This document shows positions 4,954-18,135 of a stretch of DNA of 33,364 bases, piece by piece. The DNA comes from Candidatus Stoquefichus sp. (GTDB lineage: Bacteria > Bacillota_I > Bacilli_A > Erysipelotrichales > Coprobacillaceae). Made by a program: the position numbers and the translations under genes. The notes under the pieces are model-generated. The model saw nothing but the letters and a program-made list of their open reading frames with translations, searched no databases and was not told the origin of the DNA. Within the stretch, counting starts at the first letter, position 1. Every line of letters starts with the position of its first letter. Location of the stretch: contig JAETUM010000027.1 of NCBI GenBank assembly GCA_021768625.1, positions 1 through 33,364 on the forward strand, read 5' to 3'.

Positions 4954-6699
4954 ATGGATAGAAAGTGGGATTTAAAAAAATTATATACATCGTTTGAGGA
5001 TAAACAATTAATTCAAGATATTGAAGAAGTTAAAGTATTATTAGAAGATTTTAAAAAGTATCCAGAATTAGAAAATACTGAAGACAATTTAATTCAATAT
5101 CTTAAACAAGAAAATATGTTAAATAACAAAGTAGAACGATTGTTTTCATATGTTAATCTTGTTATGAATGCTGATACAACAAATCATAAAGCTATCAAAT
5201 ATGCTTCTATTTTAGAAGATATGTTAGCAACATTTGCAGATACAGATGCAAGAATTCAAAAGTGGGTAGCAAGTTTTGATTTTCAACAATTTCAAGATCA
5301 GTATATTTTAGAACACTTATATATTTTAAATGAAATGAAAGAACATAATCAATATTTGTTAGATAACCAAGGAGAAGCTGTTCTAGCAAGTATGAAAATT
5401 AATGGATCATCTGCATGGTCTAAATACAAAGATCAACTCATATCATCAATGACAGTATTCATGGATAACCAAGAATATCCATTAACAGAAGTTTTAAATA
5501 TGGCTTATTCAAAGGATAAAGATATAAGAAAAAAGGCTTATAAAGCTGAAATACAATCTTACCAGCAAGTTGAACAAGGTGTAGCCTCTGCATTAAATGC
5601 AATTAAAGGAGAAGCAATTACAGTTGCTAGACTAAGAGGGTATGAATCTGTTTTGCAAAGAACATTAGTTGATTCAAGAATGACACAAAAAACACTTGAT
5701 GTTTTACTTTCAACAATACAAAAATCATTACCAATGTTTGAAAAATACTTTCAGACAAAAGCTCAACATTTAGGATATACAAATGGATTACCTTGGTACG
5801 AAATATATGCTCCTATAATAGATATTCATAACGAATATTCATATGAAAAAGGATGTGATTTTGTCATTGAACAATTCAATTCCTTCTCTAAAAATTTAGG
5901 AGATTATGCGAAAATGGTTATTCAAAATAATTGGATTGATGTTTATCCTAGACAAGGGAAAGTTGGTGGAGCATTCTGTCAAAATCTTCATTGTATTCAG
6001 GAAAGTCGTTTTTTATTAAATTATGGAAATGATTTTAGTGATGTGATTACAATGGCACATGAACTTGGTCATGGCTTCCATGGTCATTGTTTAAATGCCC
6101 AAACTGCACTCAATGCAGAATATCCAATGCCAATTGCTGAAACAGCATCAACATTTTGTGAAACAATAGTGAAGAAGGCAGCCTTAAAAACAGCAACTCC
6201 ACAACAACAACTCATGATTTTAGAAAATGAGTTATCTGATTGTGCTCAAGTTATTGTTGATATTTATTCAAGATTTTTGTTTGAAAGTCGTTTTATCCAA
6301 AAGAGGGAAAATGGTCCATTAAGTGTTGATGAAATTAAAGAATTAATGATTGAAACACAAAAGGAGGCTTATGGACATGGGTTAGACCATAATGAATTAC
6401 ATCCATATATGTGGACATGGAAACCTCATTATTATGAAGCAGATTATGCTTTCTATAACTTTCCATATGCTTTTGGTTTATTACTAGCTAAAGGTCTATA
6501 TGCTTTATATCAAAAGCAAGGAGAGAGTTTTGCTTCGACTTATGAAAGATTTTTATCATTGACAGGAAAGATGAGTTTAGAAGATGTAGGAAAAAGCGTT
6601 GGTATTGATTTACAGGATGAAAATTTTTGGCAAGATTCAATTAATATGATTGCTGAAGATTTAGAACAATTTTATTGTCTTTTAAAGCAAATATCTTAA
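4954..6699 (+). CDS. pepF: Oligoendopeptidase F (M3 family zinc peptidase)
   Basis: The 581-residue protein is a cytoplasmic M3B endopeptidase that cleaves short peptides, usually those brought in by oligopeptide transporters. The thermolysin-like zinc site HELGH is at about residues 369-373 within ITMAHELGHGFHGH, and the third ligand Glu lies in the following helix (PIAETASTFCETIVKKAAL). The N-terminal MDRKWDLKKLY is typical of family starts. Length is normal for PepF (about 600). ATG 4954 is preceded by AAGGAG at good spacing; an upstream extension to 4918 would run back through the TATAAT box and is unlikely. A strong terminator follows immediately. It fits the opp genes and peptidases elsewhere in the window. 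Confidence 0.93.
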   Translation: MDRKWDLKKLYTSFEDKQLIQDIEEVKVLLEDFKKYPELENTEDNLIQYLKQENMLNNKVERLFSYVNLVMNADTTNHKAIKYASILEDMLATFADTDARIQKWVASFDFQQFQDQYILEHLYILNEMKEHNQYLLDNQGEAVLASMKINGSSAWSKYKDQLISSMTVFMDNQEYPLTEVLNMAYSKDKDIRKKAYKAEIQSYQQVEQGVASALNAIKGEAITVARLRGYESVLQRTLVDSRMTQKTLDVLLSTIQKSLPMFEKYFQTKAQHLGYTNGLPWYEIYAPIIDIHNEYSYEKGCDFVIEQFNSFSKNLGDYAKMVIQNNWIDVYPRQGKVGGAFCQNLHCIQESRFLLNYGNDFSDVITMAHELGHGFHGHCLNAQTALNAEYPMPIAETASTFCETIVKKAALKTATPQQQLMILENELSDCAQVIVDIYSRFLFESRFIQKRENGPLSVDEIKELMIETQKEAYGHGLDHNELHPYMWTWKPHYYEADYAFYNFPYAFGLLLAKGLYALYQKQGESFASTYERFLSLTGKMSLEDVGKSVGIDLQDENFWQDSINMIAEDLEQFYCLLKQIS

Positions 6700-6723
6700 G
6701 ACTATGGGTTCATAGTCTTTTTT
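6698..6723 (+). terminator. Terminator of pepF
   Basis: AAGACTATG (6698-6706) pairs perfectly with CATAGTCTT (6711-6719) around a GGTT loop, followed by a run of T. The stem begins inside the pepF stop codon. Confidence 0.85.
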
Positions 6724-6786: not shown

Positions 6787-7389
6787 ATGGATGATTTTTT
6801 TAGAAATGAAAATATAGAGATATTCAAAAAATGGATTTACTTTCAAATTTTAAATAATCAAAAATTGCTTTTGGAATCATATGATGATTGTCATTATAAA
6901 ATGTGTTATAAAGATAAAGTAGCATACTTAGTGATATGGCCTCAAGGTATTATAGAAGAAACAATGAGTCAAGGCGATAAGATATTATTTTATTTACATT
7001 ATCAATTTTATAATTTCTATTTTGCAAAAGATTTATTTTATCGTATGATAGATAAACTGACAGAAGAAATAGTAATATTAGATAGAAATATATTATTATG
7101 TTGTACAAGTGGAATGACAACAAGCTTTTTTGCAGATAAAATGAATAAGTATTGTCAACTTAATCAAAAACTTTATCATTTTCAAGCAACATCAATATAT
7201 AATTTAGATGAATTATATCAGAATTATCAATTTATTCTTATTGCACCACAATTAAAATATAAAATTGCTGAATTAAGTTCAAAGTATACATCAGCATCTA
7301 TTCAAAGTATAGATTCTCTCGTTTTTGCAACTTATGATTGTCAATCATTATTAAAACAAATAGAAGACTTTTATGAAGGAGAAGTATGA
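6787..7389 (+). CDS. Orphan protein: unknown N-terminal domain plus PTS EIIB-like domain (paralogue A)
   Basis: This 200-residue protein has two parts. Residues 1 to about 100 form an aromatic-rich domain I do not recognise, with WPQGIIEETMSQGD and FYLHYQF as its clearest segments. Residues about 102-195 resemble the lactose/cellobiose-type PTS EIIB fold: a beta strand leading to LLCCTSGMTTSFFADKM, which matches the Cys-x-x-G-Met-Ser-Thr-Ser phospho-cysteine loop, then LIAPQLKYK matching the family's GPQ segment. No EIIA or EIIC gene is near, so a regulatory or sensory role is more likely than transport; this is inference. It is paralogous to 15796-16419. ATG 6787 follows GAAGAGGTG, and the stop overlaps the next gene's ATG, implying coupled translation. 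Confidence 0.7.
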   Translation: MDDFFRNENIEIFKKWIYFQILNNQKLLLESYDDCHYKMCYKDKVAYLVIWPQGIIEETMSQGDKILFYLHYQFYNFYFAKDLFYRMIDKLTEEIVILDRNILLCCTSGMTTSFFADKMNKYCQLNQKLYHFQATSIYNLDELYQNYQFILIAPQLKYKIAELSSKYTSASIQSIDSLVFATYDCQSLLKQIEDFYEGEV

Positions 7390-7964
7390 TGAGTGAAAAA
7401 CAAAAAATGTTAGCAGGACATCTTTATCAGCCTTATAGTGAAGAGTTATATAAAGATAGAGAATATTGTAAAGGTATGTTATTTGAATACAATCGTTTAA
7501 ATCCTTTAGATAAGAACAACAGAGATCTAATTTTAAAGAAGTTATTAAACTGTAAAGGTGAATTATGTATAGAACAACCTTTTTATTGCAGTTATGGTTA
7601 TAATATTTCTATTGGTGTTAACTTTTATAGTGATGTCAACTTAACTATTTTAGATAAAGCTTCTGTTCAAATTGGAGATAATGTCATTATTGGGCCAAAT
7701 GTAAATATTTATACATCTAGCCATCCTTTTCATGAAGTTGAGAGAATGAGAGGACTAGAGTACGCAAGGCCTATAGTGATATATGATAATGTATGGATAG
7801 GGGGAAATGTGACAATATTACCTGGTGTCAAAATAAATCAAGGAGCTATTATTGGTGCAGGGAGTGTCGTGACTGATGATATTCCACCTTATGTTATTGC
7901 TGCAGGAAATCCATGTCGTGTTATTCGCTCCATTACACAAGAAGATGTGCATAAACAATGGTAA
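7386..7964 (+). CDS. Sugar O-acetyltransferase (maltose/galactoside type)
   Basis: The 192-residue protein is a left-handed beta-helix acetyltransferase of the Maa/LacA/NodL group, which moves acetyl from acetyl-CoA to sugars. The N-terminal MAC domain (MLAGHLYQPYSEELYKDREYCKGMLFEYN) is followed by hexapeptide repeats. The catalytic His lies in SSHPFHEVERMRGLEYARP, and the C-terminal GNPCRVIRSI is typical. It overlaps the stop of the EIIB-like gene by 4 nt (ATGA), so the two are co-translated. A second ATG at 7389 is equally well placed to the AAGGAG at 7376-7381. The substrate cannot be told. A hairpin terminator follows. Confidence 0.9.
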   Translation: MMSEKQKMLAGHLYQPYSEELYKDREYCKGMLFEYNRLNPLDKNNRDLILKKLLNCKGELCIEQPFYCSYGYNISIGVNFYSDVNLTILDKASVQIGDNVIIGPNVNIYTSSHPFHEVERMRGLEYARPIVIYDNVWIGGNVTILPGVKINQGAIIGAGSVVTDDIPPYVIAAGNPCRVIRSITQEDVHKQW

Positions 7965-7999
7965 AAGAAGATGAATCGTTAAGAATTCATCTTCTTTTT
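7965..7999. terminator. Bidirectional terminator holding a stop codon in its loop
   Basis: GAAGATGAAT (7967-7976) pairs with ATTCATCTTC (7985-7994), with A-run and T-run outside. The stop codon of the minus-strand TfoX-like gene (7979-7981) lies in the loop, so the right arm is also coding sequence for that gene. Confidence 0.8.
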
Positions 8000-8308
8000 C
8001 TTTTTTGAACGAGGAATAGGTGTTACGGATTCTAAAATAGAAATAACATTCTTGCATAATTCGGTGTTATCAATATCTAAAATATAATGTTCCTTTGCAC
8101 CATCATATGGAAAGCCTGTAGAAGAATGAATCATTTCATTTTGAATACAATCAAGCATTTTGATATAAACAGTATTATCACAAACTAATAAAATAGGTTT
8201 GTCATTTACATAAACCATATATTCTCCAAACATCTTTCGATAACGAATTTCCTCGATATTTTTAATTTGTTCGCATACATATTCAATATATTCTACTGTT
8301 GTTGCCAT
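7979..8308 (-). CDS. TfoX/Sxy N-terminal domain protein
   Basis: The 109-residue protein consists only of the TfoX N-terminal domain (PF04993). Recognisable pieces are the IRYRKMFGEYMVYVNDKPI segment near residues 20-40 and the aromatic/Lys positions that follow. In Proteobacteria the full-length TfoX/Sxy drives competence; stand-alone N-terminal domains in Bacillota have no established role, so competence should not be assumed. The C-terminus is strongly basic (PRSKKKKKMNS). The start overlaps the end of the upstream deacetylase gene by 16 nt, so both are probably one transcript. Confidence 0.75.
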   Translation of the reverse strand: MATTVEYIEYVCEQIKNIEEIRYRKMFGEYMVYVNDKPILLVCDNTVYIKMLDCIQNEMIHSSTGFPYDGAKEHYILDIDNTELCKNVISILESVTPIPRSKKKKKMNS

Positions 8309-9051
8309 GATGTCTTCATTCTAATATCTGAGTAGTTAATAAGTTGGATATGTTTTTCTTTTATATAGTTTATAACTTCTGGAGACCTTAATATATCTAA
8401 TTCTTTCATTCTTAAAGTTGTATAACTAGACATATCGCAAAGCCTTTGATCAAGAAGAGCTGGATGACACATGATTTCTATAGTTCCAGAATATGTATTG
8501 AGAAGTTTCATAAAATAATCTAAATTCATGTTTTTATTGTAGAAAGTAATATCACAAGGAACATATTCATAATGATTTATGATTTGTTCTTCTTGGCGAA
8601 TAGGAAGATTATATTCTTTAGCTAATCTCTTCACAACGTTGTGATGCCAAGGAAGTAGATGAACATGATGATGTGAATCAATATGTGTTGGCTTTTTACC
8701 AGCAACTTCAATAAACTTTTCTATCTGTGCTTTCCATTCCTTATATAATTCTTCTTCATCAGCGTGAGGATCACCATCTTCATAATCACAAGGACGTCTA
8801 AAATTTCCATTTTCATCTGTATAAGATTGAGCTCCATCAATAAGAGGTTTACCAACTGTTAAAACAAGATGAATACCTATTCCTAATTGAGGGAATCTCT
8901 TTGCCTCATTTAAGGCAAATTCGGCATAAGGCATATTCATCATACAAGTTGTAGATGTTAAAATACCCTTTTGGTGTGCTAATAATATACCAATTGTTGC
9001 TCCTTCACTCATTCCAAAATCATCAGCATTGACAATTAATTTATCTATCAT
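8293..9051 (-). CDS. ChbG/HpnK (YdjC-like) carbohydrate deacetylase
   Basis: The 252-residue protein is a YdjC-family metal-dependent deacetylase acting on N-acetylated oligosaccharides, such as chitobiose in E. coli ChbG. Metal and catalytic motifs are present: the N-terminal VNADDFGMSEGATIGI, GIGIHLVLTVGKPL near residue 60-75, and HIDSHHHVHLLPWH near 125. Length is normal. The ATG at 9051 has a strong AAGGAGG site. A TATAAT on the minus strand (9079-9074) precedes it. It could act on chito-oligosaccharides or host mucin-type sugars; no PTS or glycosidase gene beside it narrows this down. Confidence 0.9.
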   Translation of the reverse strand: MIDKLIVNADDFGMSEGATIGILLAHQKGILTSTTCMMNMPYAEFALNEAKRFPQLGIGIHLVLTVGKPLIDGAQSYTDENGNFRRPCDYEDGDPHADEEELYKEWKAQIEKFIEVAGKKPTHIDSHHHVHLLPWHHNVVKRLAKEYNLPIRQEEQIINHYEYVPCDITFYNKNMNLDYFMKLLNTYSGTIEIMCHPALLDQRLCDMSSYTTLRMKELDILRSPEVINYIKEKHIQLINYSDIRMKTSWQQQ

Positions 9052-15787: not shown

Positions 15788-15810
15788 AAGCAGGATTATA
15801 CCTGCTTTTT
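15786..15810. terminator. Bidirectional terminator after hflX, stop codon in its loop
   Basis: AAAGCAGG (15787-15794) pairs with CCTGCTTT (15801-15808) around a 6-nt loop and is followed by T-run. The stop codon of the minus-strand EIIB-like gene (15796-15798) lies in the loop. Confidence 0.85.
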
Positions 15811-16419
15811 GTCCAGATTATTTTTTATTGTTTGTAATATAGCATGAAAATTTTTCGTTGCATAATCAGTGGGATCAATGCAATATATTGGTTTATGAAA
15901 CTGATTCAAAAGCTTAGCATGTAAATGAGCAACCTGTGGTGCTAAATATAAAACATCAAATTCACATTTTTTTAATTCTTCCAATGAAAGAGAAAGAATG
16001 GATATGGGGAGATTACCCATTTTACATGCTTCTTGAATTTCTTCAGCAAAAACAGCACTTGATAAACCTCCTGTACAACAAATTGCTATTTGTTTTATCT
16101 TTTGATAATTATGATGAATAAGTATATTATAAAATTCTTGGAATAATTCACAAGCGTAGGACAACTCAACAATAGAATAATGAAGGTAAAAAACTTGTTC
16201 GCCACTGTTTCTTTGTATTTCTTCTTCTACGATACCATTTTCCCAAATCATAACTTTACCAATTACTTCTTTCATTTGAAAAGTAAGTATGCGAGTACTT
16301 GAATCAGAGAAAGTCGTTTCAAAAGAAACTTGATGACTTTTATATGTAGAATGATTCAAAGAAATCCATTGATAAAATAATATAGGATATAATGAACGAT
16401 AAAACTCTTGAAAAATCAT
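15796..16419 (-). CDS. Orphan protein: unknown N-terminal domain plus PTS EIIB-like domain (paralogue B)
   Basis: The 207-residue protein has the same two-part plan as 6787-7389. The N-terminal half has MIWENGIVEEEIQ and EQVFYLHYSI, lining up with WPQGIIEETMSQ and ILFYLHYQF of paralogue A. The C-terminal half has AICCTGGLSSAVFAEEI, resembling the phospho-Cys loop of lactose/cellobiose EIIB proteins, YLAPQVAHLHAKL at the GPQ position, and IYCIDPTDYATKNF where EIIB proteins have an Asp-x-x-Tyr segment. Sequence divergence from A is high, so this is an old duplication. ATG 16419 is chosen because AAGGTGAT lies just before it; the frame extends to 16449. It is divergent from the phosphatase/RpiR operon. 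Function unknown. Confidence 0.7.
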   Translation of the reverse strand: MIFQEFYRSLYPILFYQWISLNHSTYKSHQVSFETTFSDSSTRILTFQMKEVIGKVMIWENGIVEEEIQRNSGEQVFYLHYSIVELSYACELFQEFYNILIHHNYQKIKQIAICCTGGLSSAVFAEEIQEACKMGNLPISILSLSLEELKKCEFDVLYLAPQVAHLHAKLLNQFHKPIYCIDPTDYATKNFHAILQTIKNNLDKKQV

Positions 16420-16514
16420 AATATCACCTTCTTTTTTATCATATCTCAATTCAAAAAAGGAGTCATACTTTTTTCTTGAAAAGAAAATATTTTTGAAAAT
16501 AAAAGATGCTTTAG

Positions 16515-16543
16515 TTTATTATATATAATAAATATGCTAAAAT
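16515..16543 (+). promoter_or_regulatory. Promoter and 18-bp palindrome of the phosphatase/RpiR operon
   Basis: TTTATTATATATAATAAA (16515-16532) is a perfect 18-bp palindrome. An extended -10, TGCTAAAAT, lies at 16535-16543, so the palindrome covers the -35 region and most of the spacer. This is a typical repressor position; the RpiR regulator encoded in the operon is the obvious candidate. AT-rich palindromes can arise by chance, so confidence is moderate. Confidence 0.5.
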
Positions 16544-16561
16544 AAAATATGGTGAGGATAT

Positions 16562-17323
16562 ATGGAAAAAAGAATATTTGTTATATCGGATCTCCATGGA
16601 CAATTTGTTTTATTACAATTGTTATTGGAAAGAATTGGTTTTACAGATAATGATGAATTATATATTTTAGGTGATATTATGGATAGGGGACCTAATAGTA
16701 TAGATATTTACTATTTTGTTCAAGCTATGGATAATATTCATATGATTAAAGGTAATCATGAGATTATGATGCGTCAATCTATGGCTGCCGCTTTAAAATA
16801 TAATGATTTAGATTCTGAAAGATCAAATCCATATCGCTTGTGGAAACAAAATGGAGGATTAAAGACTATTAATAGTATAAGAGAATATTTGCAAAAAGAT
16901 TGTATTCCTTATGAAGAATACTTTGATTTTAAACGTACTTTTATAAAGGAATTAATAACTTTTATAGATTCTTTACCAAGTTATATTGAATTAGATTTTC
17001 AAGGAAAACACTATGTTATGGTGCATGCAGGAGTTGATCCTGAACTACCTATTGAAGAGTGCGATGAAGAAATTTTAGCATGGATAAGAGAATATTTCTA
17101 TTTTAATGAAGCTAATCCTGATTACACATATATTTTTGGACATACACCATGTTGTTTTATTAATGATGACCATTCTTTTGATGTTTGGTATGACCCAGAC
17201 TATCATAATAAAATTGGAATTGATGGTGGATTAGCTGTTGGAGAAAAAGGACAACTTAATTGCCTATGTTTAAACGATGGTTCAGTAACAGTTATTAAAT
17301 ATGGGGAGGGACAACTCAAGTGA
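16562..17323 (+). CDS. PPP-family metallophosphatase
   Basis: The 253-residue protein has the full PPP-family signature: SDLHGQ at residues 9-14, GDIMDRG near 40, GNHE near 66, VMVHAGV near 157 and FGHTPC near 193. This is the ApaH/PrpE/lambda-phosphatase fold, acting on phosphoproteins or bis-nucleosyl polyphosphates with two metal ions. All ligands are present, unlike the phosphoesterase at 18136-18951. ATG 16562 follows GGTGAGG. The stop overlaps the start of the RpiR regulator by 4 nt (GTGA), so phosphatase and regulator are made together. Confidence 0.88.
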   Translation: MEKRIFVISDLHGQFVLLQLLLERIGFTDNDELYILGDIMDRGPNSIDIYYFVQAMDNIHMIKGNHEIMMRQSMAAALKYNDLDSERSNPYRLWKQNGGLKTINSIREYLQKDCIPYEEYFDFKRTFIKELITFIDSLPSYIELDFQGKHYVMVHAGVDPELPIEECDEEILAWIREYFYFNEANPDYTYIFGHTPCCFINDDHSFDVWYDPDYHNKIGIDGGLAVGEKGQLNCLCLNDGSVTVIKYGEGQLK

Positions 17324-18135
17324 GAAGTGCGTTTTATAATTTAGTTAATTTCATTAATATGACAAATATTCATGATGTGTTTTGGAGTGCTGCGAAAATT
17401 ATTCTTCAAAATATATATAAGATCCCCAATTGCACAATTACAGAAGTAGCAAATATGTGTTATGTTTCTACAGCAACAATATCTCGTTTGTGTCGAAAAC
17501 TTAATTATGAATCATTTGCAGATTTTAAAAATGATGTAACAAATAATTTGAATTTTTTTAATCAAGATGTGAAAAGATTATATTTTGATCACCAATTACC
17601 TGCAAAAGAGACAATTAATGATGGTAAAGAAATTTTTAATAACCACTTTCAAAATGTTATTCATAATCTTCAAGATACATTTGATAATATAGAATATGAG
17701 GATTTGATGAAAATTGTAGATAAAATTCATGATGCTCATAGAATATGTTTTGCAGGAAACTTTTTTACTCAATCTGTTTCTATGCAACTTCAAATAGAAT
17801 TGTCTTATTTAGGAAAAGATTGTGTTTCTATGTATCCCCTAGAACAACAAAAAGAAATTTTTAAAACATTGGATAAGAATGATTTGATTATTGTCTCATC
17901 AATAGCGGGAGGATTCTTTGCAGATCATCCTGATGCTATACGAGCTATTACAAGATGTCCTGCATATACTATTGCAATCACACAACTAGAGACATTTGCA
18001 TATAGTGATAAAGTTGATATGATTTTAAAGGTAGGAAACAATCATCATTCATTAATTGGTAAATTTTCTATCACTTATATATTTGAAGTTTTAGAAGCAT
18101 TATATCATTTGAAATATGGATCAAAAAACAAGTAA
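17320..18135 (+). CDS. MurR/RpiR-family transcriptional regulator
   Basis: The 271-residue protein has an N-terminal RpiR helix-turn-helix (residues about 1-80, with TITEVANMCYVSTATISRLC then RKLNYESFADFKNDV) and a C-terminal SIS phosphosugar-binding domain (about 105-265, with ICFAGNFFTQSVSMQLQIEL and DLIIVSSIAGGFFADH). Such regulators sense phosphorylated sugars. The GTG start at 17320 has GGGAGGG 9 nt upstream and overlaps the phosphatase stop, so translation is coupled. Likely targets are its own promoter, which carries a perfect palindrome, and perhaps the divergent EIIB-like gene. The stop codon lies inside the terminator stem. Confidence 0.87.
   Translation: MRSAFYNLVNFINMTNIHDVFWSAAKIILQNIYKIPNCTITEVANMCYVSTATISRLCRKLNYESFADFKNDVTNNLNFFNQDVKRLYFDHQLPAKETINDGKEIFNNHFQNVIHNLQDTFDNIEYEDLMKIVDKIHDAHRICFAGNFFTQSVSMQLQIELSYLGKDCVSMYPLEQQKEIFKTLDKNDLIIVSSIAGGFFADHPDAIRAITRCPAYTIAITQLETFAYSDKVDMILKVGNNHHSLIGKFSITYIFEVLEALYHLKYGSKNK

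Follow-up and report, generated by a model that had tools for sequence, protein, structure and literature searches.

What does an EIIB-like protein of the PTS do when it is encoded away from transport genes and directly before a sugar acetyltransferase? The question is raised by P0001, a gene for a protein of 200 amino acids (ATG 6787, TGA 7387-7389, as read from the open reading frame) in a 33,364-nucleotide stretch of DNA from Candidatus Stoquefichus sp., the whole of which was analyzed here and is referred to as the window. The original prediction described P0001 as an orphan two-domain protein, with a C-terminal half resembling a lactose/cellobiose EIIB and an N-terminal half of no recognizable kind, and proposed that it senses the PTS phosphorylation state and acts together with the acetyltransferase. 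Here we lean toward the reading that P0001 is a non-transport, regulatory EIIB through which a partner sensor, either a ROK protein or the Maa/LacA-type acetyltransferase (Maa), is informed of the PTS phosphorylation state. The features discussed are collected in Table 1. Of greater interest than P0001 alone is the family to which it belongs.

Table 1. Coordinates of the features considered in the window
Feature	Coordinates	Strand	Basis or remark
Terminator-like hairpin of M3 peptidase gene	6698..6719	+	between M3 peptidase gene and the 6787-7964 pair
P0001, short family member (TriTu-like + EIIB(Lac/Cel))	6787..7389	+	profile, conservation, predicted fold
P0001 TriTu-like domain (residues 1-97)	6787..7077	+	predicted helix-five strands-helix
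P0001 EIIB(Lac/Cel) domain (residues 99-200)	7081..7386	+	PF02302, match to 1h9c
Maa/LacA-type hexapeptide acetyltransferase	7386..7964	+	profile, alignment; overlaps stop of P0001
Bidirectional terminator-like hairpin	7963..7998		end of P0001-Maa unit
YdjC family gene	8293..9051	-	convergent with P0001-Maa pair; in conserved synteny
P0002, second short member, both domains	15796..16449	-	real start may be a later ATG
Calcineurin-like phosphoesterase	16562..17323	+	divergent from P0002; arrangement recurs at P0002 orthologs
RpiR-type regulator	17320..18135	+	in divergent unit with P0002 and calcineurin-like phosphoesterase

The likeness of the C-terminal half to EIIB, first seen in the motifs LLCCTSGMTTS (residues 103-113) and APQ (residues 153-155), is borne out by profile and by predicted fold. 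PF02302 matched residues 101-168 in a profile search (E 2.2e-8; 35.1 bits against a cut-off of 23.6), PDB sequences of chitobiose and cellobiose EIIB matched P0001 with E values of about 5e-6, and PF02302 was found in all 60 aligned family members at E 0.1 or better. The original prediction had staked its claim on an EIIB fold, and this fold was obtained: in an AlphaFold2 model built from P0001 and 59 relatives (mean pLDDT 89.6), residues 97-200 had phospho-EIIB chitobiose as their best structural match (1h9c; Z 17.6, rmsd 1.6 over 104 residues), with Cys106 at the end of a predicted strand (100-106), in keeping with the position of the phospho-Cys at the end of strand 1 in this fold. Across 109 family members Cys106, Pro154 and Gln155 were invariant and Thr111 varied once (108/109), so the phospho-acceptor site of the family is under strong constraint. 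Cys106 is the predicted phospho-acceptor, and we infer that it is phosphorylated. P0001 shares with the Lac/Cel (chitobiose) EIIB family the profile, the fold, a P-loop of the form C-x2-G-x-T with its phospho-Cys, and the APQ motif. Unlike that family, it carries an N-terminal TriTu-like domain, is encoded without EIIA or EIIC nearby, and belongs to a family whose members are fused to sensor-like proteins or paired with them. No open reading frame for an EIIA or EIIC is visible anywhere in the window, in line with the original remark that no such gene is near, and P0001 is in this respect not encoded in the manner of a transport subunit.

The N-terminal domain was harder to place. In the AlphaFold2 model it consists of a helix, five strands and a further helix. 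TriTu (PF24689) was its commonest Pfam match, obtained for 7 of 42 members (best E 7.2e-5), and these matches, although weak, extended across nearly the full length of the TriTu profile. The best-scoring protein of the window was P0002 with 23 bits, below the cut-off of 27, and a search of the whole genome with PF24689 returned no match. Fold searches used whole-protein models, in which the N-terminal domain was folded together with the rest, and their matches were dominated by EIIB and ROK. We rejected the idea, raised at the outset as one that would undo the prediction, that the domain is itself a known PTS component, since no such component appeared among its matches in Pfam, PHROGs or PDB sequences. 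The domain is best called TriTu-like, a likeness that is distant, was seen in paralogs of P0001 and is below the Pfam cut-off; our guess is that it serves as a protein-binding or dimerization module. TriTu itself is an immunity protein to an EF-Tu ADP-ribosylating effector (PMC10469887). The P0001-family domain shares with it the weak near-full-length profile match, but differs in scoring below the cut-off, in being fused to EIIB and in having no toxin partner in sight.

The description of P0001 as an orphan holds for transport genes but not for the protein family. Orthologs with 50-59% identity occur in several genera, more distant ones have 30-37% identity, and pairwise dN/dS among the close orthologs was 0.03-0.16; orthologs, paralogs and purifying selection together rule out a chance open reading frame or a plain orphan gene. 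P0002, the second short member in the window, matched P0001 by BLASTP with E 1e-16, and the genome as a whole holds six full-length members, of which two are short and four long, and one broken short copy. The broken copy (L020:2518-2889, C109) is truncated or frameshifted; a free intact EIIB gene adjoins it and an RpiR regulator is near. P0002, its divergent phosphoesterase and the RpiR regulator form a divergent unit spanning 15796-18135 that recurs in related genera: the loci inspected (L040, L124, L162-L165, L167-L169) have the P0002 ortholog and a calcineurin-like phosphoesterase gene in divergent orientation, and in about half of these an RpiR regulator followed the phosphoesterase, as in the window.

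Beyond this genome, a scan of public genomes yielded 79 further family loci, mostly from Erysipelotrichales, including the Coprobacillaceae genera Kandleria, Eggerthia, Faecalibacillus, Thomasclavelia, Longibaculum and Sharpea; some Hungatella-like, Selenomonadaceae and Coriobacteria records outside Erysipelotrichales also carry family loci. Within a class-wide sample, full-length matches were almost confined to Coprobacillaceae, the taxonomic family of the window, where all 16 listed genomes were positive. No viral relatives were found by fold at E 0.001 or better, and no plasmid match reached 60% identity, with Borrelia PTS IIB/IIA genes as the top matches. Member lengths are bimodal, about 200 amino acids in short forms and about 470 in long forms. 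Most short members group in one clade (34 sequences, support 0.97) when a tree is built from the two domains common to short and long forms; this clade contains stand-alone and split kinds alike. In two Selenomonadaceae loci (L032 and L041) a short member is followed directly by tandem family genes, two of them long in L032. The P0001 family is large and apparently undescribed.

The long forms connect the family to ROK proteins. PF00480 (ROK) matched all 38 long members scanned (best E 6.6e-17), and residues 219-464 of a long-form model superimposed on the ManNAc kinase 6jdc with Z 23.9 and rmsd 2.5 over 233 residues. The DxGG[TS] motif that binds ATP phosphate was present in none of 72 long members, and the position of the ROK catalytic Asp was occupied by Asp in 54 and by Asn in the other 18, whereas conserved Asn residues and an AGE motif were retained. 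Given the missing motif and the replacement of the catalytic Asp, the long-form ROK domain is more likely, judged from its sequence, to be a sugar sensor than a kinase. The absence of a CxCGxxGC zinc motif from the long members was discarded as evidence, as two true ROK kinases used as controls also lack it. Eight split loci (L022, L031, L074, L077, L091, L120, L122 and L125) have a separate ROK gene downstream of a short member. Three of these ROK genes were scanned, and all three matched ROK and HTH_24, the latter above cut-off in only one. Some genomes fuse the two parts and others encode them side by side, so that the EIIB protein and ROK very likely act together. The repeated occurrence of the EIIB module together with ROK sensors or regulators strengthens the sensing role that we infer for P0001; counting against this role is that no ROK gene lies beside P0001 itself.

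A small P-loop protein resembling BrxF (PADLOC E 5e-21) is encoded directly downstream of a long TriTu-EIIB-ROK gene at L012:5056-5484 (C109) in the genome of the window, and such neighbors occur at nine further loci including L045, L061, L063, L067 and L079; no other BREX gene was noticed nearby. BrxF-like neighbors of long members numbered 9/84 versus 0, seemingly a strong enrichment, but most of the loci share synteny and it was set aside as functional evidence.

At the locus of the window the partner gene is Maa. Its reading frame of 192 codons has two possible starts, ATG 7386, which overlaps the P0001 stop by 4 nucleotides (ATGA), and ATG 7389, which overlaps it by 1. The 4-nucleotide overlap originally reported fits the first of these and recurs as an ATGA junction at five orthologous loci (L101-L104 and L113), with ATG 7389 as the alternative. 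Terminator-like hairpins upstream of P0001 and at the close of the Maa gene delimit the pair, and P0001 and Maa are therefore probably expressed as a single two-gene transcript. The ACETYLTRANSFERASE pairing, with Maa directly downstream of P0001, was found in 11 of 20 orthologous loci from six genera (window counted), which supplies the survey of related genomes that the original prediction had proposed. These 11 loci are not independent events, as the segment is syntenic (YdjC, AroE, RdgB and TrmL). In the other nine loci Maa is missing and PAP2 or unrelated genes stand in its place. PAP2 phosphatase genes follow Maa in L113, L116 and L119 and follow the P0001 ortholog without Maa in four other loci; genus g7 and L112 have neither. 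Upstream of several P0001 orthologs (L101-L107, L130-L136) lie genes resembling GH1 6-phospho-beta-glucosidases, and in most of these loci YdjC, a putative carbohydrate deacetylase, is convergent downstream. An independent pairing occurs in the same genome (C134): the end of another Maa gene lies 12 nucleotides ahead of a long member, and the same run of genes includes a free EIIB and an RbsD/FucU gene. Two of the three Maa genes of this genome adjoin family members.

The Maa of the window has PF12464 (Mac cap) and PF00132 (hexapeptide repeats) above cut-off and aligns over its length with LacA and Maa structures, with its His113 at LacA position 115, the established catalytic His. Of the paired Maa proteins, those of the window and L101-L103 have His at this position, those of L104-L107 have Tyr, and those of L113, L116 and L119 have Thr. 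This His was lost in 7 of 11 paired Maa proteins (window counted) against 0 of 13 unpaired ones checked; the Fisher p of 0.001 makes this look stronger than it is, as only about two loss events are implied. The His-less paired genes are under purifying selection, with dN/dS of 0.02-0.08. Catalytic His lost and purifying selection kept, these proteins are probably no longer normal acetyltransferases, as far as sequence allows us to judge, and yet still needed. The Maa of the window's species may be active, and possibly an ordinary enzyme. Compared with the galactoside and maltose O-acetyltransferases LacA and Maa, the window protein shares the full-length alignment and the His equivalent, whereas its orthologs in the same gene pair have Tyr or Thr instead. 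Overall, what the original prediction saw in the sequence is correct and its interpretation is supported in part: the Maa link is conserved, but a plain joint action of P0001 with an acetyltransferase is weakened by the loss of His in two lineages and by the nine loci without Maa.

Several other explanations of these data deserve consideration. P0001 could serve a unit for sugar salvage or detoxification, in which phosphatases (PAP2, HAD or calcineurin-like) dephosphorylate PTS sugar phosphates that cannot be metabolized. Maa would then acetylate the dephosphorylated sugars, and the EIIB protein would switch the enzymes on or off. Genes for sugar-phosphate enzymes are common next to family members: HAD genes made up 7 of 84 adjacent same-strand genes of family members against 19 of 873 others (p 0.005, in counts that take in syntenic relatives), PAP2 and metallophosphoesterase genes recur as neighbors, and the window Maa keeps its catalytic His. 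Several paired Maa proteins, however, have lost that residue, and neighbors differ widely among paralogs; we regard this explanation as unlikely. A role in immunity or as an antitoxin between competing bacteria, marked by the TriTu-like domain, would fit with TriTu as the commonest Pfam match of that domain. The score is nonetheless below cut-off, no toxin gene was recognized beside P0001 in the window, where the neighbors are mostly metabolic, and PADLOC returned no match for P0001 or P0002, so that we give this role hardly any credence.

P0001 could also be a functional transport EIIB that carries an extra domain and serves a distant EIIC in trans. Its phospho-site and fold are intact, and eight EIIC and two Lac-type EIIA (PF02255) matches lie elsewhere in the genome, outside the window. 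Free EIIB genes are, however, numerous in this genome and several adjoin PTS genes, P0001 has no EIIC or EIIA near it, and neither the fused TriTu-like domain nor the ROK fusions would be expected of a transport subunit. This makes the explanation rather improbable. More improbable still is that the family acts as a soluble phosphotransferase, in which the phospho-Cys of EIIB replaces ATP as donor to a sugar held in the ROK fold. A ROK domain that lacks DxGG[TS] but keeps its conserved Asn residues and AGE motif would suit such a reaction; the Asn at the catalytic position in a quarter of the long members (18/72) would not, and short members including P0001 have no ROK domain at all. To our knowledge, there is no precedent for phosphotransfer from EIIB to a ROK-held sugar in a soluble protein.

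We return to the regulatory reading, in which P0001 passes the PTS state to a partner. From the computed domain content, predicted fold, invariant phospho-site, family size, fused and split forms, gene pairing and loss of a catalytic residue in the partner, phosphorylation, partner binding, the direction of the effect and its output might be pictured as follows. A soluble Lac/Cel-type EIIA, for which the two Lac-type EIIA proteins of the genome are candidates, would phosphorylate the EIIB domain of P0001 on Cys106, and the domain would lose its phosphate during import of the matching sugar. The phosphorylation state would alter the binding of P0001 to a partner sensor, or its action on it, this partner having the fold of a sugar-handling enzyme and binding a sugar-related ligand. 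In most of the family the partner would be the ROK domain, fused or as an adjacent HTH-ROK regulator; at 6787-7964 it would most likely be the co-translated Maa.

Two known systems bear on this proposal. In E. coli the ROK repressor Mlc is bound and sequestered by dephosphorylated EIICB-Glc (PMC3901232), and by analogy a contact between EIIB and ROK is plausible in the P0001 family. In both cases an EIIB domain meets a protein of the ROK fold, which in the P0001 family is fused or encoded side by side. In contrast to EIICB-Glc, the EIIB of the family is soluble, of the Lac/Cel type and fused to a TriTu-like domain; in contrast to Mlc, the long forms have no recognized HTH, and P0001 itself adjoins Maa rather than ROK. 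The PRD regulators (MtlR, ManR, LicR and CelR) offer a second likeness in their non-transport use of EIIB to read the PTS state, as described for the EIIB-like domain of MtlR (PMC3217849). They differ in their EIIB class, which is Gat-like in MtlR and Lac/Cel in the P0001 family, and in their domains, as Pfam scans of P0001, P0002 and one long paralog gave no match to PRD or HTH. Regulatory EIIB domains in PRD regulators and the binding of a transport EIIB by Mlc are already known, and the P0001 family would join them as a regulator that uses an EIIB domain to follow the PTS state. We found no report of a ROK-EIIB fusion or of a link between EIIB and an acetyltransferase in the open-access literature.

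In conclusion, we tentatively suggest, as a possibility somewhat short of an even chance, that gut Coprobacillaceae possess a new PTS signaling module in which a TriTu-like and EIIB protein reads PTS phosphorylation and controls a sensor derived from a sugar enzyme that is dead or losing its activity. For most copies this would be a ROK pseudokinase, and for the branch represented in the window a Maa protein that is turning into a pseudoenzyme. In annotations the family is probably concealed by labels such as "PTS IIB" or "ROK family protein". The paired Maa proteins that lose a catalytic residue under purifying selection provide a testable case of an enzyme turned sensor. If the proposal is true, the family would parallel the Mlc-EIIB contact in fused or operon-encoded form, without membrane sequestration, and would represent a new coupling of sugar uptake to response, with EIIB hard-wired to a ROK sensor. 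It would add a layer of signaling to many genomes of gut Firmicutes, with several copies in each.
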